DNA from: a virus
DNA: 42,441 nt
Direction: 5' to 3' (one strand)
IMG/VR virus record: IMGVR_UViG_3300040811_000117
Span: 1 to 42,441 of that record
Shown here: one piece after another, positions 3,341-30,176 of the stretch
How the letters are laid out: the number at the start of each line of letters is the position of its first letter
Position numbering within the stretch: position 1 is the first letter of the stretch
Notes under the pieces: generated by a model
Database searches by the model: none
The model's input: the letters and a program-made list of their open reading frames with translations, nothing else
What the model was told of the DNA's origin: nothing
Program-made: the position numbers and the translations under genes

Positions 3341-3416
3341 TGGTGCTGAAGGAGAGGCTCGAACTCCCGACCTGATGATTACAAATCAACTGCACTACCA
3401 ACTGTGCTACTTCAGC
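3341..3416 (-). tRNA. tRNA-Thr (TGT)
   Basis: Acceptor GCTGAAG/CTTCAGC, D-loop with GTTGGTA, anticodon loop TTTGTAA (anticodon TGT), T-arm GTTCGAG, and an encoded CCA. It is separated from tRNA-Gly by one base. tRNA-Thr(UGU) is a classical substrate for cmo5U34, which is relevant to the CmoA-like gene at 28173-28868. Confidence 0.9.
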
Positions 3417-3501: not shown

Positions 3502-3584
3502 TGGTGCGCCTAGAGAGACTCGAACTCCCACGCTTTCGCACTAGAACCTAAATCTAGCGTGTCTACCAATTTCACCATAGGCGC
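3502..3584 (-). tRNA. tRNA-Leu (TAG)
   Basis: Acceptor GCGCCTA/TAGGCGC, anticodon stem CTAGA/TCTAG around loop TTTAGGT (anticodon TAG), and a long variable arm (TGCGAAAGCG) typical of class II tRNAs. T-arm GTTCGAG and an encoded CCA are present. It is the first tRNA of the cluster and a classical cmo5U34 substrate. Confidence 0.9.
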
Positions 3585-10753: not shown

Positions 10754-11428
10754 TTACTCGAAATTTAATACACTTTGACCCTGTGGTAAAGTGACTTTTT
10801 TTGGTTTAATATATTTTGTATCCATAGTTTCTTTCACTACATCACTCATGAAATCACCAAGTTTTGTTATATCACAATGCAATTTAGTTCTGACGAATAT
10901 TGTTTTTCTCCATGACTGTGCTTTGGTAGTTATGGATTCTATTTTATGGGGGATGTGAGACATAAACATCACAGCACCATTAGGAACAGGACTTATCTTC
11001 AAAGAAGACCCCATTGCCAACTTTCCACCCCAAGAGTCATCCCATGTTGTATGTGGATAATATACAATGCTTAAATTAACCCCATCATTATCGACATGAT
11101 AATGAGGCTCTGTCTCGCTAAAAGTGTTTGGCGCTTTTGCTAAACAATTTATCCAATCCATTATGCGTATATCAAATGTAAACATCTCCATAAACTCTGG
11201 CGAATCATAAAACATATGTTGAACCATTCTGTCTCTAGCATCAAGAAAAAGAGGAAACAGTGTGGGATCAGGACTTTCATTAAACGTCTGTGTGTCTAAT
11301 GACCCCATTCTACCATCCAATTTATATTTTATTCCATCGCTGGTATAGTTCTCTAAGAACATATGTGTAGTAGGAGAAAACACATTTTCAAAAAAATATA
11401 CTCCCTTAGTCATTCTATGGCAAATCAT
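10754..11428 (-). CDS. 2OG-Fe(II) dioxygenase coupled to DNA polymerase
   Basis: 224 aa from the ATG at 11428 (MICHRMTKGVYFF), which overlaps the gp43 stop as ATGA; the longer frame would lie inside gp43. Iron ligands are H111 and D113 in HYHVDNDG and probably H161 in HIPHKIESI. R174 or R180 in WRKTIFVR would bind 2-oxoglutarate, and WGGKL is typical of the family. The reaction is an oxygen-dependent hydroxylation, with unknown substrate (protein side chain, nucleobase or small molecule). It is one of three such genes coupled to replisome genes here. Confidence 0.85.
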   Translation of the reverse strand: MICHRMTKGVYFFENVFSPTTHMFLENYTSDGIKYKLDGRMGSLDTQTFNESPDPTLFPLFLDARDRMVQHMFYDSPEFMEMFTFDIRIMDWINCLAKAPNTFSETEPHYHVDNDGVNLSIVYYPHTTWDDSWGGKLAMGSSLKISPVPNGAVMFMSHIPHKIESITTKAQSWRKTIFVRTKLHCDITKLGDFMSDVVKETMDTKYIKPKKVTLPQGQSVLNFE

Positions 11429-13926
11429 GTAAAAAAATTCTCCAGTGTTGATTTCTTTTCGGTACTCCATCCGATGACATCAAGGATAACCTTCAAAGGC
11501 TCAGTGAACGCTTTAGCGAACTGTAGTTCGTAGTCAATGAACTTTTCAAGTCCAAACTCAGATGGAAGATTGTTGATGATTGAGATGACATTCTGTCCAG
11601 TGCCATTCGGCTCTTTGAGATAACAGAACTTAATCTTCTCACCATCTTTGATAGTCGGATACTTCTTCTCCAATCCGTTCTGACGAATGAGATGATTGTA
11701 TAGCAGTCCACCTCTTACATGGATAGGTGTTCCTTTTGCTAGGACGAGGTTGTCTTTATCCTTACTATCATATTTATTCAAATCAGACAGTGAGCGAGGG
11801 AAAGCAATGTCCTCAAACGGTAGAGACTTGAACTGCTCTTTGAAGTCGGCGATGAACTTCTGAACAGTCTCTTCATCCTTGTTCAGAGTAATCTCAATCG
11901 CTTCCTTCAGAGCGTCACGACAAGACGCAGGCGTTGAAGACTTGACAGTTTCGATACCCATCATCTTTAGTTTAGGTGTGGAGAAACGAACACCCTCACT
12001 ATCGTGAACATTCAGCATATATCGCTTCTTAGCAGTCCATATACCCTTGTCAGCAATCACCTCACGCTTCATGAACATCTTCTGTTCATAAGCATTCATC
12101 ATATCAGCAAGGTCTTGATAAGCCTTATCAATAAAAGGTTCAACCTTCTCTGTAGCAACTCTGTCGAGGAAGTCAACCACCCTCCCACAGTAACTGTCCT
12201 TCGACTCCTCCTCTCGCTCTCGTAGCACCTTATCAACCAACCTGTCAAAAGTAATGTATACTGAATCCGTATCTGACGCAATAACATAGTCTTCATCCTC
12301 CGTATCCAACAGTTTGTTCAAATATTCATTCAAGCGTTTCTCAATCCACCGAATAGACAACTGACCAGATAGTGTGATAGATTCCGCTTGTCGTACATCA
12401 AAGAACCGAAAGTATTGATTACCAAGCGCACCATAAGCAGAGTTCAACTGAACCTTCTTGGCCATTTGCAAGTTCTTATACTTGGATATCTTCTTCACCA
12501 GTTCATTCGATTTAGATTTCTGAAGTTCTTTCTCCGCTTCAATCATCTGTTTCTTATAGAGAGAACGCTCATCATACATTGTCTGCATCATCTCAGGAAG
12601 GAAGCCTTGGAAGGTTCGGTTATAATAGTGTCCATTTGCAGTCAACACCATGTCTTTTGGACACTCTGGTGTCTCACTAGCAATCAGTTTGTCAACAGAT
12701 GTCTGTGCAAACTTACCCTCAACGAAAGTGTCAGGCGAGATATTGTATTGCATAATCAGGTGTGGATACAGCGAGTTCAAGTCAAACGACACCACCCATT
12801 TGTGTTGTCCAACTTGCGGGTCTTTGACATAAGCACCAGCATACGCTTGCGTCTTGATGCTAGACTTCTTTGGTGGTATCACCATCTTCTTCTTTAGAAG
12901 ATAGTTGTGAATGAGAACATCCCACAGACGCACCTGTGTGAACACATCGTTGTAGTTCACCTTTGCATCGTATGCGATAGCGAGAGCCATCTCAATCAGT
13001 TTCATCTTGTCATCAATACGCTCGACAAGTTCCACATCCTTGATGTTATAGTCAATGAACTTCTGATAGTCAGTTCGATACAACTCATGCAGTGTTCCAA
13101 CCTCAGAGTAGTCGAGTTTCTTCTCACCAATCTCTATATGAGCGATATGGTCAAGTCGATAAGATTCTTGCTGTGAGTATGTGAACTTACGATAGAGTTC
13201 AAGATAGTCGAGGATAGAGACACCAGCGAGTTCATAGCACTCTTGTTGTCTGTTCCATTGCTGTATATGTCGATAGTTCAGACTACGATGTGGAGACATC
13301 CTTTGAGCCATCTTCTCATCGAACAGACGAGTGATACGATTGACAAGGTAGGGAATATCAAAGAAGCGAACATTCCAACCAGTGACGATATCAGCATCAA
13401 GTTTTTCCCACAAGTCGAGAAACTTCATAATCAATCTGCCTTCAGTCAGACAGTTGAGATAGCGAACATCATCTCTGGTATTGTGATACTCACCAACACC
13501 AAGCACGAACACCTTACCATTCATCTTTACAGTGATAGCAGTGATAGGTTGTTTAGCATCAGACGGCTCTGGAAATCCTTCCTCAGAACCAACCTCAATG
13601 TCAATGTTAGCAACACGAATGTGTTCGATATCGTAATCGTTACCATACTCCTCATTCAGACAAGCATACTCGTACAGGTTTGAACCATAGACGGTAAACC
13701 CATCGACATCAGCATATCGCTTGACGAAATCTCTTGCTTCACGAATAGAGCCTTGGACAACTGGTTCAACAGGCGTACCATTGACAGTCTTCCAATCACT
13801 GTCTCGCTTGCTTGCAAGATAGAATGTGGGAGAGTATGGAATCTTGTCTACAAAGCGCCGACCATTATCATAGCCTCGGATGTAGACAAGATTGCCACGA
13901 GTGTATGTGTTTGTATAGAATCTCAT
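11425..13926 (-). CDS. 43: DNA polymerase, family B, T4 gp43-like
   Basis: 833 aa, somewhat shorter than T4 gp43 (898). The 3'-5' exonuclease has Exo I (NIDIEVGS), Exo II (VTGWNVRFFDIPYL) and Exo III (YNIKDVELVERI). The polymerase domain has motif A (SFDLNSLYPHLI), motif B (KVQLNSAYGALGNQY) and motif C (ASDTDSVYI). No intein or split is seen. The ATG lies exactly 6 nt after a TATAAC box and no Shine-Dalgarno is visible, so a leaderless transcript is predicted. RegA repression is known for T4 but no operator was identified here. Confidence 0.97.
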   Translation of the reverse strand: MRFYTNTYTRGNLVYIRGYDNGRRFVDKIPYSPTFYLASKRDSDWKTVNGTPVEPVVQGSIREARDFVKRYADVDGFTVYGSNLYEYACLNEEYGNDYDIEHIRVANIDIEVGSEEGFPEPSDAKQPITAITVKMNGKVFVLGVGEYHNTRDDVRYLNCLTEGRLIMKFLDLWEKLDADIVTGWNVRFFDIPYLVNRITRLFDEKMAQRMSPHRSLNYRHIQQWNRQQECYELAGVSILDYLELYRKFTYSQQESYRLDHIAHIEIGEKKLDYSEVGTLHELYRTDYQKFIDYNIKDVELVERIDDKMKLIEMALAIAYDAKVNYNDVFTQVRLWDVLIHNYLLKKKMVIPPKKSSIKTQAYAGAYVKDPQVGQHKWVVSFDLNSLYPHLIMQYNISPDTFVEGKFAQTSVDKLIASETPECPKDMVLTANGHYYNRTFQGFLPEMMQTMYDERSLYKKQMIEAEKELQKSKSNELVKKISKYKNLQMAKKVQLNSAYGALGNQYFRFFDVRQAESITLSGQLSIRWIEKRLNEYLNKLLDTEDEDYVIASDTDSVYITFDRLVDKVLREREEESKDSYCGRVVDFLDRVATEKVEPFIDKAYQDLADMMNAYEQKMFMKREVIADKGIWTAKKRYMLNVHDSEGVRFSTPKLKMMGIETVKSSTPASCRDALKEAIEITLNKDEETVQKFIADFKEQFKSLPFEDIAFPRSLSDLNKYDSKDKDNLVLAKGTPIHVRGGLLYNHLIRQNGLEKKYPTIKDGEKIKFCYLKEPNGTGQNVISIINNLPSEFGLEKFIDYELQFAKAFTEPLKVILDVIGWSTEKKSTLENFFT

Positions 13927-17414: not shown

Positions 17415-17443
17415 AATATATCACTCTTTGATCAAAATGTCAA
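17415..17443 (-). promoter_or_regulatory. Promoter of gene 62, predicted leaderless
   Basis: TTGACA (17438-17443), a 17-nt spacer and TATATT (17415-17420), then 6 nt and the ATG at 17408. Confidence 0.8.
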
Positions 17444-18021
17444 CCCACAACTCTCATGCGATAAGCAATCGACATTCTAGGTTTGTTTGGTATCTTTGGC
17501 GCTAATCCTCTATGAAGTTCCTTAGAGTTGAAATATATGAAGCGACCTGGCTTTGGTAGAAGACTATCAATACCACCATCATCATTCTGAATCTCTAGTT
17601 GTCCACCCCAATCATCAAACCATTCATACATTGGATAAAACATAATCGTTCTGCTTGAACCATCATCAGGACTAATCATAACGTCTGAATGCCAGTCACC
17701 ATCCATACCCTGTAGTTGTAAGTTTGCGTCAATAGCGATCAACTCAAGTTTTTCTTCTGTATAAAGATTGAAACAGAAATGCTCTAATACTTCCCAAAAA
17801 ACATCATCAACATCACAGTTTGTTACTCTTAAACTGTTTTCTTTATTAAATAATCTATTTCCAAAGAAAAAGGGTAGATTACCAACTGACAGTTTTGATT
17901 TGTGTGGATATGTCACTCTGTTTGAAGTGTTTGTGTATTCCCATGGTATTTGAACACTAGCAATATAAAGTTTGACTAGAAAATCTGGTGTAAAGTTATT
18001 ATCAAATACTTTAGTTTGCAT
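17440..18021 (-). CDS. 2OG-Fe(II) dioxygenase inserted in the clamp-loader operon (second)
   Basis: 193 aa. Iron ligands H111 and D113 in DWHSDVM and H170 in KELHRGLAP; R182 or R188 in RMSIAYR would bind 2-oxoglutarate. The DDWGGQLEI and KPGRFIYFN segments are typical of the prolyl-hydroxylase-like double-stranded beta-helix fold. The start codon overlaps the stop of the previous oxygenase gene (TAATG), so the two are coupled. Substrate unknown. Confidence 0.85.
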   Translation of the reverse strand: MQTKVFDNNFTPDFLVKLYIASVQIPWEYTNTSNRVTYPHKSKLSVGNLPFFFGNRLFNKENSLRVTNCDVDDVFWEVLEHFCFNLYTEEKLELIAIDANLQLQGMDGDWHSDVMISPDDGSSRTIMFYPMYEWFDDWGGQLEIQNDDGGIDSLLPKPGRFIYFNSKELHRGLAPKIPNKPRMSIAYRMRVVG

Positions 18022-18569
18022 TATTCAACTCCCATATTAAAAGCAATAATATACCTATCTTTATCACTATGATGATAGTTTACACTGTGTAAAAGCGTTG
18101 AGGGAAAGATGACAATCCTTCCAAACTCACTATTTTGTCTATAATGCGTGTATTTAGCAGACATACTATTAGCAAAAAAATCAGTCTCACCTATGCTTGT
18201 CAGATACAATATTCCAGACAAGAGATTATTATCATAAATTACATCTGCATGATTATGCATAGAATGAACTGCATTCTGATTGTAAATAGCAGTCCAGTAT
18301 GTTTTTAGGTTGACGTTCAGCCCATTTTCTTTGAATACGCTTACAATCCCATTCTCAAAAAGATTTTCAAAGGATTTGATTTTTACTGGACTGGACCAGT
18401 CTGTTGCATATGTCTCTGGATTCTCTTCTCTTGTAGCATCACTTACAAGTTTGATTTTATCCTTGTTAGCATGAACCTCTTGTAGAACTTCTTGAGCCGT
18501 GTCTTGAGATACGGACATGGTAATCATTTCGGTATAGAATATTTGATCTACGTTCACACCTGTAATCAT
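18021..18569 (-). CDS. 2OG-Fe(II) dioxygenase inserted in the clamp-loader operon (first, coupled to gp44)
   Basis: 182 aa from the ATG at 18569, which overlaps the gene 44 stop as ATGA; a GTG at 18575 is an alternative. Iron ligands H107 and D109 in MHNHADVIYDN and H161 in STLLHSVNYH, with R172 for 2-oxoglutarate. The SGILYLTSIG and IVIFPS segments match the 2OG-FeII_Oxy_5-type family found in marine phages. It differs clearly in sequence from the second oxygenase, so it is not a recent duplicate. Substrate unknown. Confidence 0.85.
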   Translation of the reverse strand: MITGVNVDQIFYTEMITMSVSQDTAQEVLQEVHANKDKIKLVSDATREENPETYATDWSSPVKIKSFENLFENGIVSVFKENGLNVNLKTYWTAIYNQNAVHSMHNHADVIYDNNLLSGILYLTSIGETDFFANSMSAKYTHYRQNSEFGRIVIFPSTLLHSVNYHHSDKDRYIIAFNMGVE

Positions 18570-19507
18570 TTCCACTCAACCTCTACCATCAGTTCAGTTA
18601 GACAAGCCATGATATTGATCTCTTGATCAGCAACAAAAGCAGACTTGTATTGATAGTCGGCGATTGTCACAACTGTCTGTGGTATACTCTGAGGCTGAAT
18701 GTATTCATTCATACCTTCATAGATTTTACGAAAGAGTGGTGCTACATCACCATCAACATTCTGTGCAACCCATTTACGAACCGTGCTGAACTCTTTGTTT
18801 CTCAAAGCCTCGATGAGAGAGTTTAGATTCTTGTCGGAGAAAGTAGACAGAATACCAGTATCGATAGTACCAGTAGCAGAGTATCTTTGTAGTTCATTGA
18901 GTACTCTACGATTGTCTGGAAAATATTTCTTGACAACTTCTGCTACAACCTTATTGTCATATGTGACTTGTTCTAGCAATAGAATCTTTTGTATTCTCTG
19001 AAAGAACTCTTTAGCCATCTGTGGTTTGTCAGCATTGCTAATCTTGAACTCAATCACAGAACATCGACTTTGTAGCGGTGCAATAATCTTGTTGACAAAG
19101 TTACAAGTAAGAATGAATCCACAGTTGTTGCTATACTCTTCCATGAAGTTTCTCAGTGCTGGTTGTACAGAGTTAGCATTGAGATAGTCTGCTTCATCTA
19201 GAATCACATACTTACGTCCACCTGAAAAAGATACAGATGACGCAAAGTTTCTCAGTTCATTTCTCAGAACGTCAATAGAACGTCCTTCATCAGAACCGTT
19301 GATTACGATATAGTCGCAGTCCAACTCTTCCAACATGGCTCTAGCGATAGTTGTCTTACCAACACCAGCAGAGCCAGTTAGAAGGAGGTTTGGAATGTTT
19401 TTGTTGTTCACAAAGGTCTGAAAGGTTTCTTTCAGAGAGGGTGGCAGAACAGCATCCTTTACCATCTTAGGACGATACTTTTCTACCCATAAAAAATTAT
19501 CACGCAT
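18566..19507 (-). CDS. 44: Clamp loader ATPase, gp44-like
   Basis: 313 aa, close to T4 gp44 (319). AAA+ ATPase of the sliding-clamp loader. Walker A is LLTGSAGVGKT (about residues 42-52), Walker B is VILDEADYLN, the SRC motif with the arginine finger appears as LQSRCSVIEF, and sensor 2 is near FPDNRRVLNELQ. It hydrolyses ATP to open and load gp45. The C-terminal collar is intact. It sits downstream of a small protein gene and gene 45. Confidence 0.96.
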   Translation of the reverse strand: MRDNFLWVEKYRPKMVKDAVLPPSLKETFQTFVNNKNIPNLLLTGSAGVGKTTIARAMLEELDCDYIVINGSDEGRSIDVLRNELRNFASSVSFSGGRKYVILDEADYLNANSVQPALRNFMEEYSNNCGFILTCNFVNKIIAPLQSRCSVIEFKISNADKPQMAKEFFQRIQKILLLEQVTYDNKVVAEVVKKYFPDNRRVLNELQRYSATGTIDTGILSTFSDKNLNSLIEALRNKEFSTVRKWVAQNVDGDVAPLFRKIYEGMNEYIQPQSIPQTVVTIADYQYKSAFVADQEINIMACLTELMVEVEWK

Positions 19508-25186: not shown

Positions 25187-26050
25187 TTAGAAGAAATCGT
25201 CAATAGTTCTATTTGATGTATTGTAAAGCAAAATCTCAGTTGCTTTCTTTGCTTCATGACCTTCTTCGGTTTTCTTTCTTCTACCAGCGGTATATGTAAC
25301 AGGAAACTTCTTACATATCGCATTTCGATTGTCAAAAAAACCATCACCGATATCACGATTTGCTAACCATACGTTGCTGTTGTTTTCCACATTAGCAATC
25401 AACTTCTCACACTCTTCATCAGAGAATGGCTGATTGTAATCCGCAAAACTACCACGATAAGGTGGATCATAATATGTGAAATCACAAACTGGTGCTTCAC
25501 TCCAGTCACCGCACAACAAATGAGTCGTTCTCTCGTTCATCATTTTGTGCCAGTAGTCTACCACACCTTTATCGTAAACCTTGTCTTTTTGGTTTAGCAA
25601 TCCAGCAGGCGTACCATATCGATTGTTTGTGTTTTTGTTGATCTGCCAGATACCATTGAATCCAGTCTTCATAAGGAAGTACAGAACAGCAGATTCTTTT
25701 ACCTCACCCCAAGTTTGATAGTTCCAAGCATTCTCTTCCCTCAAGTCGTAGTAAAACTTCTTCCTATCTTCTTTTGATAGTGGTAGGTACTGCTTGGAAT
25801 AGTCATCAAGAATGGAGCAAAACTCTTGTTTGTTATCACGAATGTGTGTGTAGATACTTACCAATCCTTTATTGATGTCGTTTATCCAAATCTCTTTTGG
25901 ATTGTATCTCTCAACGACATATAGAAGCATTGCTCCACCACCGAAAAATGGTTCAGAGTATGTTTCTATATTTTGATCAGGCATAAGTGGTAAGTAATGC
26001 TTTAGCATCTTGTTCTTACCACCAGCCCAGATGAATAAAGGTTTAGTCAT
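25187..26050 (-). CDS. dam: DNA N6-adenine methyltransferase, Dam/D12 class
   Basis: 287 aa. Motif X and I are FIWAGGK (residues 6-12) and EPFFGGGA (33-40); the catalytic motif IV is DPPY (195-198), with FLMKTGFNGIWQIN typical of D12-class Dam enzymes. The likely site is GATC by family, but this is not shown. Methylation could protect phage DNA or regulate promoters. The ATG overlaps the stop of the PD-(D/E)XK-like gene by 1 bp, a layout seen in restriction-modification pairs. Confidence 0.93.
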   Translation of the reverse strand: MTKPLFIWAGGKNKMLKHYLPLMPDQNIETYSEPFFGGGAMLLYVVERYNPKEIWINDINKGLVSIYTHIRDNKQEFCSILDDYSKQYLPLSKEDRKKFYYDLREENAWNYQTWGEVKESAVLYFLMKTGFNGIWQINKNTNNRYGTPAGLLNQKDKVYDKGVVDYWHKMMNERTTHLLCGDWSEAPVCDFTYYDPPYRGSFADYNQPFSDEECEKLIANVENNSNVWLANRDIGDGFFDNRNAICKKFPVTYTAGRRKKTEEGHEAKKATEILLYNTSNRTIDDFF

Positions 26051-26916
26051 TATATAGCCACATTCACATAACCATCTGCGATTGCTCGTGTATCACCGCC
26101 ACGCTTGAACTTTGGAGTAAACTTCAATCCAAGTTTATCGATATCAGTCAAATCAGCAATATTCACAAGTGTCATTTTCTCATCATCTATGTATATGATG
26201 TTGTTCCAACCATCAACACGCTTATAGTTTTTCAAAGCAAACTTACCAACAGCGGTATTGAAAGCAACTGCATCAGTATAACATTCAGCAATCTCTTTAG
26301 CGAGTTCTGTAGTATCACAGCCGACATACAGTTCCTTAAAGTAGTCTGCATATACGCTTGGATCAGAGACAGTTGCAATGTGTTCATCGAACTTCTTTGG
26401 AAGTTTCATACCAGGCGCTGTTCCAGCAAAATACTTAGCATTGAGTTTATCAACCAAACCCTTGTCAGTAAGACCTGTCTTTACAGGCTTCAGACTAGCA
26501 CCATTCTTTTTAATCTCGACTTTAGCACCATTATCCAAAACACCATCACTATCATTGCTGAAACTGTAGCCCGCAATGATGAGTGGAAATGCAAGTTCAC
26601 CAATACCAATGGCCGTACCATTACTACCAATCAGTTTCTTGAACAGCAAAGGAAAGATGATATCTTGACGTAAGATTTCTGGAATCAGATCATCAAAAGT
26701 TGTACGAAAGTTTGAATAGAGAACAGTGTTACTAACAAGATTAGCATCATTCTCTAAAAGTGTAAGTGTGTATTCTGCGTTACCATTTGTCGTAACATCA
26801 TAGTAACACAGATATGATTTGAAGTCAGAGATAAAGCGATCAGCGGCTGTGTGACCTGCGATACCTCTATTCTCAAGTAAGGTGTCGATACGAGATTCTA
26901 GTTCTTTGGAGTACAT
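26050..26916 (-). CDS. PD-(D/E)XK endonuclease-like protein next to Dam
   Basis: 288 aa. GIGELAFPLIIAGYSFSNDS followed by AKVEIKKNGASLKP gives a candidate PD-(D/E)XK site: E107, D124 and E134-x-K136, with K143 nearby. The first 90 residues are helical and the C-terminus is mixed alpha/beta. Its position directly upstream of dam with a 1-bp overlap suggests a common function in DNA recognition or restriction. I do not recognise a named family; the nuclease prediction is from motif spacing and may be wrong. Confidence 0.5.
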   Translation of the reverse strand: MYSKELESRIDTLLENRGIAGHTAADRFISDFKSYLCYYDVTTNGNAEYTLTLLENDANLVSNTVLYSNFRTTFDDLIPEILRQDIIFPLLFKKLIGSNGTAIGIGELAFPLIIAGYSFSNDSDGVLDNGAKVEIKKNGASLKPVKTGLTDKGLVDKLNAKYFAGTAPGMKLPKKFDEHIATVSDPSVYADYFKELYVGCDTTELAKEIAECYTDAVAFNTAVGKFALKNYKRVDGWNNIIYIDDEKMTLVNIADLTDIDKLGLKFTPKFKRGGDTRAIADGYVNVAI

Positions 26917-26939
26917 AAGTTACCTCTATTTCTCATTAA

Positions 26940-26974
26940 CGAATCACCTTACCATAAGTAGAGAAGAATGTCAA
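26940..26974 (-). promoter_or_regulatory. Early promoter with GTGATTCG element, Dam operon
   Basis: TTGACA (26969-26974), a 17-nt spacer and a weak TAAGGT -10 (26946-26951), overlapping GTGATTCG (26940-26947). The ninth base is T instead of C. Confidence 0.65.
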
Positions 26975-26979
26975 GGGCC

Positions 26980-28062
26980 TTATTTGTAAATATGAAGAGA
27001 GTTCATAGGATACTTTTTAGAAAGTGACTTGACCTGTGGAATTACTCCATAAAGAACGGTACGACCTTCGATTGGTTTTGCGTTACCAAACCGATACTTA
27101 GAAATCTGTCGTTCAAACATATCAAATCGTTTCTTGAAATCTACACCCTTCTTGATCCAGTGATTTTCTGGGTTTCTTCCATCAGGAGTTCCAGTGTGAA
27201 CAATCAAACGAATTTCTTTTACGTCTGGACCATAGTACTCTTCTGCCTTAATGATACGACTGAAAGTCTTATCAATGTAAGACGCAATCGGAAAATATAC
27301 CACTTCACGATTATCGGTATATCCATGTTTATCCAACCACTCTTTAGCACCTCTTCCTTCTGGAAAAGAAATGATTTGCTGAACACCTTCTTTGATTTCT
27401 CTTGCTTTGTGACAAATCGTACTTACTTGTGTTGCATTTAGTTTTGTGGAAATAATATTGATCTCATACAAGACCTGATCAACAAAAGATTCCATAGACT
27501 GTTCGTTTGAAATCTCTCCATACTCAACTAAACGAAGGATTGTCTTCTCAATGTCCATAACGGTTGCTTCACCATATGGCTTGTTTTCAGAGTTCATCAT
27601 AGTAGCAAAACGTAGAGCATTTGCTGGTGTTGTCTCATCAAAAACATGAGCAATGATGTTAGTACAACCCATATTGATAAGAATATTAAATCGTGTACGG
27701 CCCTCAAGGACAACGTACTTACCGCTCTTCAACTTCATCAGCATGATTGGAAGTTGCGCTAGTGAGTATCCATTCTGTTCAATATCTGAACGAATACCGA
27801 AATAAGCCGGATTGACGTTGACTCTTGCTCCTTGTGAAAAGAACTCATTATCCGAATCGATATTAGAAACATCGACAAGTTCTTCATTTAAGAAGGCAAT
27901 GCCTTTTGGTGCGAGAGAACCATAGATTTTTGGGTATGCATCTTTGCAAATCAATCTTTTAGATGTTTCAAGATGCTTGTTGGTAAATGTGAACTTATCT
28001 ACTTTTTGATCGATAAAGACAGATAGGTTCGCTTCTTCCTTAGTCATGAAGATTGCATTCAT
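26980..28062 (-). CDS. ParB/sulfiredoxin-fold protein
   Basis: 360 aa. The segment LPIMLMKLKSGKYVVLEGRT with RFNILINMGCTNIIAHVFDE (residues about 104-143) is the ParB/Srx core: a hydrophobic strand, then the conserved G-R-x-R-x-x-x-h motif. The rest of the protein is helical and not similar to the HTH region of chromosomal ParB. ParB-fold phage proteins include nucleases and DNA-modification cofactors. No ParA partner is nearby. Single-gene unit with its own promoter and a long leader. Confidence 0.7.
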   Translation of the reverse strand: MNAIFMTKEEANLSVFIDQKVDKFTFTNKHLETSKRLICKDAYPKIYGSLAPKGIAFLNEELVDVSNIDSDNEFFSQGARVNVNPAYFGIRSDIEQNGYSLAQLPIMLMKLKSGKYVVLEGRTRFNILINMGCTNIIAHVFDETTPANALRFATMMNSENKPYGEATVMDIEKTILRLVEYGEISNEQSMESFVDQVLYEINIISTKLNATQVSTICHKAREIKEGVQQIISFPEGRGAKEWLDKHGYTDNREVVYFPIASYIDKTFSRIIKAEEYYGPDVKEIRLIVHTGTPDGRNPENHWIKKGVDFKKRFDMFERQISKYRFGNAKPIEGRTVLYGVIPQVKSLSKKYPMNSLHIYK

Positions 28063-28172: not shown

Positions 28173-28868
28173 CTATTTTACAGCAATCGCTCCAACAAAC
28201 ATATGATTTCTCCAGAATGGTTGCAGATTAGAGAAACCAGCATCCTTAATCATGTCCTCAATCTCTGTCCATGTATTAGGTTTCAGCATATGTCTAAGTG
28301 TTCTTTCCTTATCCATAATATCCTCAGTGCTAAAACTTTTACGCTTGAAGTCGTAATAGTTAAAGGTAAGCATATCCTGTAACTTCGCATTTTCACAGAT
28401 AGTTTTCTCTGCAAAGATAAAAGCACCACCCTTGTTCAGTCCATCGTAGATGTTTTTGACTACTTGCTCTCTATCGGTATGAGGCATGAACTGCAAGGTG
28501 AAGATGGACGTAACTAATGAACACTCACTGAACCAGTAGTCACGAATGTCATTTTTTATGAAGGAAACGTCTGACCAAGGATGGAGTCTTTCAATATCTT
28601 CTGCTCTCTTATCCAAGTCGTCATAAAAACCTTCAGCAATCTCCACACCGACATAGTGTGCATTTGTGCAATGATCCTGATTCTCTTCTAGCATTCTCTG
28701 TGTCATCTTACCAGTAGAGCAACCAATATCAACAATATCAGTTCCATTCTCTACAAAGTAACGAGACAGTCCAATCACATCATCAATGAGATCAGAGTAT
28801 CCACGAATGGAGTTATCAATGTGATTGTCAAACCCTTCTTTACGGTGTGCAAATGTAAAGTCAGCCAT
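28173..28868 (-). CDS. cmoA: CmoA-like carboxy-S-adenosylmethionine synthase/methyltransferase
   Basis: 231 aa against 247 for E. coli CmoA. It matches CmoA along its length: FDNHIDNSIRGYSDLID (13-29), DIGCSTG for SAM (47-53), KNDIRD (105-110), FTLQFMPHTDREQ, IYDGLNKGGAFIFAEK and YYDFKRKSF. R189 in MDKERT aligns without gaps after DFKR with E. coli R199, the residue that binds the carboxylate of Cx-SAM. CmoA makes Cx-SAM from prephenate and SAM, and CmoB uses it to form cmo5U34 in tRNA. CmoB is absent here. The alignment was recalled by eye. Confidence 0.8.
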   Translation of the reverse strand: MADFTFAHRKEGFDNHIDNSIRGYSDLIDDVIGLSRYFVENGTDIVDIGCSTGKMTQRMLEENQDHCTNAHYVGVEIAEGFYDDLDKRAEDIERLHPWSDVSFIKNDIRDYWFSECSLVTSIFTLQFMPHTDREQVVKNIYDGLNKGGAFIFAEKTICENAKLQDMLTFNYYDFKRKSFSTEDIMDKERTLRHMLKPNTWTEIEDMIKDAGFSNLQPFWRNHMFVGAIAVK

Positions 28869-30003
28869 TATATTTTACCAAAACCCTTTCATAGATTTTA
28901 TTAGCAATCTCTTTCATCATCTTAGGTGCAACCATTCTACCAATGCGCTCTGCTTGAGCATCAAAGTCACCAGTAAGAACATAGTCGTCTGGTAAAGCCA
29001 TTGCTCTCTTCATCTCATTGATAGTCAGTTTGCGATTTGCTTCATAGTGTATGATACCAGACATACCCTTCTTTTGTCCAGTCTGAGTTAGCGTAGGACA
29101 AGGTAAATCTGGACTACAACGAATCATGTTGAAACACGAACCCTTCGGATTGGTTTCCTTAAACATAGGATTGGATGCTTTGAGATATTTTTTGGGTCTG
29201 AAAGGAATGGGTTCGACAAACTTCCATTGCCATGAATCTTTCAGATAATCCTCAAGCATCTTTGCTTGCTCTTCATCATTCTCTAATCCTTGCAATGCGT
29301 CTTCAAAGCGAATACGTTCACTTGTAGGCGATGGAAATATGCTGTTGATATTCAAGAATGTCAAACCAACATTAGAGCATACATCATCACGCACACCGAT
29401 AAAGATTGTGCGCTCTCTGTGCTGTGGAACTCCATAGTCAGCGGCGGACATCACCTTATATGACATACTGTAACCAATGCTCTCAAACGCATTGATGAAC
29501 TGTCGCAACTTTGGTTTAGCAAAGTCCATCGTGATTCCCTTGACATTCTCAGCAACGATTACCTTTGGTTTAATAACCTCTGCTACACGAATGAACTCAA
29601 GAAACAAATCTTCGATGTTCTCTACCTTTTTACCATCAGAGTAGTTCTTGGTTTTGTTCCATCCCTCTTGATTACGAGACACCATAGAAGAAACAGAGTA
29701 AGCAGAACAAGGTGGTGAGCCATCTAGAATGTCCAACTCACCTTCCTTTAGTCCTGTCTTATCAAGAAAGTCTTGTCCACTATACTTCTTGATGTCGTCC
29801 ACTAGAACTGGTGTATCAGGAAAGTTAGCAGTATAGGTCTCGACTGCGGCTTCGACAAACTCATTGATAAGTCGAATGTCTCCACCAGCAAGTCGATAAC
29901 CTGTGGAAGAGCCTCCACCACCAGCGAATAAACTGATGACAGAGAACTTCTTCTGTGCAGATGCTTTCCTTACATCTTCTAGTGTGTATGGCGTGTACGT
30001 CAC
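28861..30003 (-). CDS. DNA C5-cytosine methyltransferase
   Basis: 380 aa from a GTG at 30003 that overlaps the upstream stop (GTGA). All main motifs are visible: I LFAGGGGSSTGYR, IV GSPPCSAYS with catalytic C99, VI AENVKG (151-156), VIII QHRERTIFIG, and the C-terminal IGRMVAP (motif X). The target-recognition region (about 210-300) is compact. The 5' neighbours are a 58-aa protein and peptide deformylase. No cytosine-specific restriction partner is visible. Confidence 0.95.
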   Translation of the reverse strand: MTYTPYTLEDVRKASAQKKFSVISLFAGGGGSSTGYRLAGGDIRLINEFVEAAVETYTANFPDTPVLVDDIKKYSGQDFLDKTGLKEGELDILDGSPPCSAYSVSSMVSRNQEGWNKTKNYSDGKKVENIEDLFLEFIRVAEVIKPKVIVAENVKGITMDFAKPKLRQFINAFESIGYSMSYKVMSAADYGVPQHRERTIFIGVRDDVCSNVGLTFLNINSIFPSPTSERIRFEDALQGLENDEEQAKMLEDYLKDSWQWKFVEPIPFRPKKYLKASNPMFKETNPKGSCFNMIRCSPDLPCPTLTQTGQKKGMSGIIHYEANRKLTINEMKRAMALPDDYVLTGDFDAQAERIGRMVAPKMMKEIANKIYERVLVKYNG

Positions 30004-30176
30004 TTTGTGCCCGCTGTCTCTTTAAGATTCTCTTCTGCGGCTTCGATTTCTTCAATACGACTCTTCATGTAAGAGATTGCTGTATGAATATGTCCAGTGT
30101 CATGCGGTTGTAGTTTACCTTCTGCAACCTTGATCTCATTCCTAAGAATCGCTTTCAAATCATCTACATAACTCAT
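30000..30176 (-). CDS. 58-aa hypothetical protein
   Basis: Reads MSYVDDLKAILRNEIKVAEG and then a helical, charged stretch to the stop at 30000-30002. Its ATG overlaps the deformylase stop as ATGA, and its TGA overlaps the GTG start of the C5 methyltransferase, so the reading frame is enclosed by coupled neighbours. Contains HDTGHIHTAISYMKSRIEEI, a likely coiled helix. Function unknown. Confidence 0.6.
   Translation of the reverse strand: MSYVDDLKAILRNEIKVAEGKLQPHDTGHIHTAISYMKSRIEEIEAAEENLKETAGTK

Follow-up and report, generated by a model that had tools for sequence, protein, structure and literature searches.

Does a CmoA homologue carried by a phage serve tRNA modification, or is its product used by another enzyme? 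The question is raised by a viral contig of 42,441 nucleotides (IMG/VR record IMGVR_UViG_3300040811_000117, analysed in full and hereafter called the window), for which a preliminary description had proposed that the phage CmoA supplies carboxy-SAM (Cx-SAM) to a host CmoB for the cmo5U34 modification of phage tRNAs. The window encodes a major head protein, scaffold, head protease, UvsX, UvsY, DNA polymerase and clamp loader genes, and represents a T4-like phage with cyanophage affinities (of the 469 records that matched at the DNA level, 366 are from Synechococcus phages). We found that cmoA overlaps the gene for a homologue of a DNA cytosine C5-carboxymethyltransferase (cmoX), and propose, by analogy with characterized enzymes and with a probability of roughly 0.92, that the two genes form an operon for DNA carboxymethylation. 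The features concerned are as follows.

28173–28868, minus strand: cmoA, Cx-SAM synthase homologue of 231 aa, identified by profile, identity, fold and dN/dS
28861–30003, minus strand: cmoX, DNA cytosine C5-carboxymethyltransferase homologue of 380 aa with a GTG start, matching PF00145 and 8yf3
30000–30176, minus strand: small ORF of 58 aa that overlaps the cmoX start (GTGA) and is conserved in the related contigs L004 and L005
26980–28062, minus strand: protein of 360 aa downstream of cmoA, possibly ParB-like
3502–3584, minus strand: tRNA-Leu(UAG), called by ARAGORN
3341–3416, minus strand: tRNA-Thr(UGU), called by ARAGORN

The cmoA gene is an intact open reading frame of 231 codons with an ATG start. 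Its product matched the CmoA profile TIGR00740 over residues 2–231 (E = 1.4e-33; 116.5 bits, which is below the equivalog cut-off of 193.3), the structure 4gek (E = 5e-27) and the phage family phrog_4752 (E = 1.1e-65), bearing out the earlier proposal of a whole-length likeness to CmoA. An AlphaFold2 model built from 21 natural homologues (mean pLDDT of 78) had as its top PDB matches 4gek, 4iwn and 1im8, all CmoA or YecO structures (TM 0.78–0.81), so that the comparison of folds agreed with the earlier assignment. The closest characterized protein is SpCmoA of Synechococcus phage S-B43, a proven Cx-SAM synthase (kcat 2.33/s; PMC12783734), to which the window protein is 59.8% identical, as against 29% to E. 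coli CmoA. Given this 60% identity to a proven enzyme, rather than the TIGR00740 cut-off, the window CmoA is very probably a Cx-SAM synthase. The dN/dS ratio of 0.108, calculated against the nearest relative (L005), indicates a maintained gene under purifying selection. Compared with E. coli CmoA and Haemophilus influenzae YecO (4gek, 4iwn and 1im8), the protein shows homology over the whole length, the same fold and conservation of Y39, D62, G64, S66, D117, F137 and E164; it differs in overall identity (28–29%), in the replacement of R199 by E188 and of N90 and N132 by Ile (I, V or L across the clade), and in that no CmoB partner was found.

The replacement of R199 deserves attention given that this residue of E. 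coli CmoA forms a salt bridge to the carboxyl group of Cx-SAM (PMC3663124). R189 had been put forward as its counterpart; pairwise, multiple (MAFFT) and profile alignments instead placed E188 opposite R199 and R189 opposite S200. Among 87 CmoX-linked phage CmoA proteins, E188 is invariant (87/87) and position 189 is variable (69 have R, 16 have K and the other 2 have I or V), and R189 was thus ruled out by the alignments together with this variability. One alignment gap lies a few residues upstream of the R199 column and leaves room for a one-residue shift of the E188/R199 alignment. The active SpCmoA also aligns a Glu in this column, so the absence of R199 from the window protein is no argument against Cx-SAM synthesis. 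R192, located one helical turn on and invariant in the same 87 proteins, is a candidate for a substitute carboxylate binder; the AlphaFold2 confidence at residues 186–195 (<50) is too low to place a carboxylate-binding residue there. With a proven synthase and its clade lacking R199 in every alignment made, Arg199 is an unreliable marker of Cx-SAM synthases. Among other phage CmoA homologues, those of an Erwinia jumbo phage (L092) and Alcaligenes phage Afa-NA1 (L094) keep R199, with no CmoX-like gene within 6 kb, and a distant one from an SPbeta-like Staphylococcus phage (L093) has S in the R199 column and lies beside a C5 methyltransferase gene (L093:6648–7646) with VGGV, neither Arg nor Asn, at motif X.

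The end of cmoX and the start of cmoA share 8 bp; the preliminary description, right about the likeness to CmoA, had missed this overlapping gene. For its product, Pfam and NCBIfam go no further than the label C-5 cytosine-specific DNA methylase (PF00145, E = 7.5e-52). Its best PDB match is 8yf3 (E = 9.6e-118; 54% identity), with M.HaeIII as the runner-up (E = 8.7e-21). The structure 8YF3 is SpCmoX of phage S-B43, established by biochemistry and structure as a DNA cytosine C5-carboxymethyltransferase whose cofactor, Cx-SAM, is supplied by S-B43's own CmoA (PMC12783734). All six SpCmoX residues checked are identical in the window protein: the nucleophile C98 (C99, in an SPPC motif at residues 96–99), the cofactor residues F25, E47, F48 and D69 (F26, E48, F49 and D70), and R350 (R356). 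R356 stands in place of the conserved motif X Asn (Asn-304 in HhaI). In SpCmoX, R350 touches the carboxymethyl group, and the R350N mutant is active with neither SAM nor Cx-SAM (PMC12783734). In M.MpeI N374K (cited in PMC12783734), a basic residue at the equivalent site likewise confers Cx-SAM use, although that enzyme is engineered and CG-preferring whereas the window CmoX is natural and carries Arg. The cmoX gene is also under purifying selection (dN/dS of 0.060 against L005). Residues 207–315, presumably the target recognition region, are just 37% identical to SpCmoX, and the GC motif of SpCmoX should therefore not be assumed for the window enzyme.

The linkage of the two genes extends to related phages. 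IMG/VR was searched with the window CmoA, and the best 80 of 228 loci, not all of them independent, were taken. A CmoX homologue lies directly upstream of cmoA in 75 of the 75 loci of this set with at least 200 bases upstream, with a spacing that ranges from an overlap of a few bases to 40 bases, and every related CmoX in the set has Arg at the R356 position wherever the region is covered and aligned. The S-B43 system (PMC12783734; 8YF3) resembles that of the window in its CmoA (60% identical) and CmoX (54%) encoded in one operon, in the catalytic Cys, the Cx-SAM Arg and the cofactor residues, and in its T4-like, cyanophage-like backbone. It differs in gene order (CmoA–CmoY–CmoX, whereas in the window cmoX is upstream of and overlaps cmoA), in its CmoY, which was not found in the window, and in the diverged presumed target-recognition region. 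The complete genome of S-CRM01 (NC_015569) likewise encodes a CmoA (62%) and an Arg-bearing C5 methyltransferase (53%), and like the window has no Asn_synthase-type ligase; there, however, cmoA precedes the methyltransferase gene and the other neighbours differ. The 58-aa ORF is apparently in the same transcription unit as cmoX and has a homologue of 60 aa in L005 (9041–9223). Divergence between the window and L005 is uneven: CmoX (28861–30003 versus L005:10001–11143) is 95.5% identical with a dS of 0.47, and SbcC is also close (dS of 0.50); CmoA, PDF and a DNA methyltransferase-like gene are far more diverged (75–80% identity, dS of 1.16–1.25). This comparison points to patchy, recent exchange of cmoX.

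From the S-B43 enzymes (PMC12783734), we infer the following chemistry for the pair. CmoA would convert SAM and prephenate to Cx-SAM. CmoX would attack C6 of cytosine with C99 in a covalent mechanism, hold the carboxyl group of Cx-SAM with R356, and carboxymethylate C5 in phage DNA to yield 5-carboxymethylcytosine (5cxmC), a base that would probably protect against restriction.

Two other readings separate CmoA from CmoX. One takes the C5 methyltransferase homologue for a conventional cytosine methyltransferase that depends on SAM, with CmoA serving apart from it, for example in SAM consumption or on tRNA. The database labels cited above are what such an enzyme would carry; this reading is nonetheless highly improbable in view of R356 in the place of the motif X Asn, the fact that wild-type SpCmoX with its Arg accepts only Cx-SAM (PMC12783734), and the fixed genetic linkage of cmoX with cmoA. 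The other is the earlier proposal, in which Cx-SAM from the phage CmoA passes to a host CmoB and raises cmo5U34 on tRNA-Leu(UAG) and tRNA-Thr(UGU), tuning wobble decoding. Both tRNAs are real, belonging to a four-tRNA cluster with Gly(GCC) and Asn(GUU), and their types were correctly described as cmo5U34 substrates, E. coli tRNA-Leu3 and tRNA-Thr4 carrying cmo5U/mcmo5U34 (PMC6599085). E. coli CmoA could also feed SpCmoX (PMC12783734), and Cx-SAM might conceivably flow the other way where the host has a CmoB. Against this stand the homologue of a dedicated Cx-SAM-using DNA enzyme that overlaps cmoA and the pairing of CmoA with CmoX in all 75 contigs from the best 80 of 228; tRNAs are missing from most stretches scanned. 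No tRNA genes were found in the scanned stretches of S-B43, L005 and most other relatives, and that of S-CRM01 has only Arg(UCU) and Gly(UCC), which is weak evidence because stretches rather than whole genomes were scanned.

The CmoB side of the earlier proposal points the same way. As had been noted, CmoB is absent from the window (no TIGR00452 match); it was likewise not found in nine other records, including the complete S-B43 and S-CRM01 genomes, or in the same-phage contigs that overlap the window. The relatives infect mainly Synechococcus, and only one of 14 control genomes, S. elongatus included, passed the CmoB cut-off, presumably E. coli; a CmoB-bearing host, moreover, would normally be expected to have its own CmoA. 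Delivery of Cx-SAM to a host CmoB is thus very unlikely to be the role of the gene, the adjacent, overlapping cmoX very probably encoding the consumer of Cx-SAM. The cluster lies approximately 25 kb from cmoA, its match to cmo5U34 substrates looks coincidental, and neither tRNA is likely to have a part in the pathway; a secondary tRNA effect could still occur in a CmoB-bearing host. Because cmoA is joined to cmoX, very probably the user of its product, we assign it to DNA modification rather than tRNA modification.

Within DNA carboxymethylation, the identity of the final base can be considered separately. In S-B43, glycine is added by CmoY, an Asn-synthetase-like ligase (PMC12783734). An SpCmoY-like gene adjoins CmoX in about half of the related contigs with enough upstream sequence (29 of 61, from the best 80 of 228 loci), and L025 and L087 have instead a long asparagine-synthetase-like protein that begins MCGIIGS, that of L025 with a glutaminase domain (Pfam). 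This frequency favours a full S-B43-type pathway, in which 5cxmC is amidated by a CmoY-like ligase whose gene lies beyond the sequenced part of the genome; such a pathway would refine carboxymethylation by CmoA and CmoX and is not exclusive with it. In those relatives, however, the ligase adjoins CmoX, whereas no Asn_synthase (PF00733) or CmoY-type ligase was matched in the window, none in same-phage contigs of 72, 24, 26, 11 and 5 kb that overlap the window at 99.8–100% identity, and none in L005 or the complete S-CRM01 genome; we regard a distant ligase as rather doubtful. Tentatively, the lineage of the window and S-CRM01 may have bare 5cxmC as the final base or make another product through a non-CmoY enzyme. 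The window thus adds a branch with no detectable ligase, in which bare 5cxmC is a plausible end product. In L005, a P-loop kinase fused to a cytidylyltransferase-like domain (L005:9216–10004) overlaps the CmoX start in the usual position of the CmoY ligase. It was rejected as a pathway-specific candidate: it has five phage homologues, and the two whose neighbourhoods were inspected both lie where no C5 methyltransferase is annotated, so the protein may be unrelated.

Downstream of cmoA, the window has two unknown proteins (the 360-aa protein and one of 288 aa at 26050–26916) and a Dam-type adenine methyltransferase. These three genes (25187–28062) lie between cmoA and a T4-like peptidase gene; the block is absent from L005, where the peptidase gene directly follows cmoA, and looks like an inserted cassette. 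The 360-aa protein matched NCBIfam SbnI at residues 101–144 (E = 1.4e-4) and a ParB-like phrog (E = 0.086), with no significant match to PF02195/ParB_N in the window, and across 112 aa it shares 28% identity with a protein encoded immediately upstream of CmoY in L084. AlphaFold2 modelling of this protein alone was unusable (pLDDT of 33). Its gene is preceded by a promoter-like TTGACA...TACATT and is therefore perhaps a separate unit, and its membership of the carboxymethylation pathway is uncertain. Neither this protein nor that of 26050–26916 had relatives in annotated phages, and in IMG/VR both matched only contigs of the same phage.

DNA cytosine carboxymethylation was published as a class in December 2025 (PMC12783734), on the basis of searches that covered IMG/VR among other sets and may already have included this contig; the window pair is an added member of that class. 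For annotation, a phage CmoA homologue beside a C5 methyltransferase with Arg at motif X is to be read as a DNA-modification gene, whereas databases still label such proteins (phrog_4752) as tRNA methyltransferases. A doubtful label of another kind concerns three window proteins (10754–11470, 17440–18021 and 18021–18575) that match phrog_274 ('DNA endonuclease V'), since that of 18021–18575 better matches the 2OG-Fe(II) oxygenase family.
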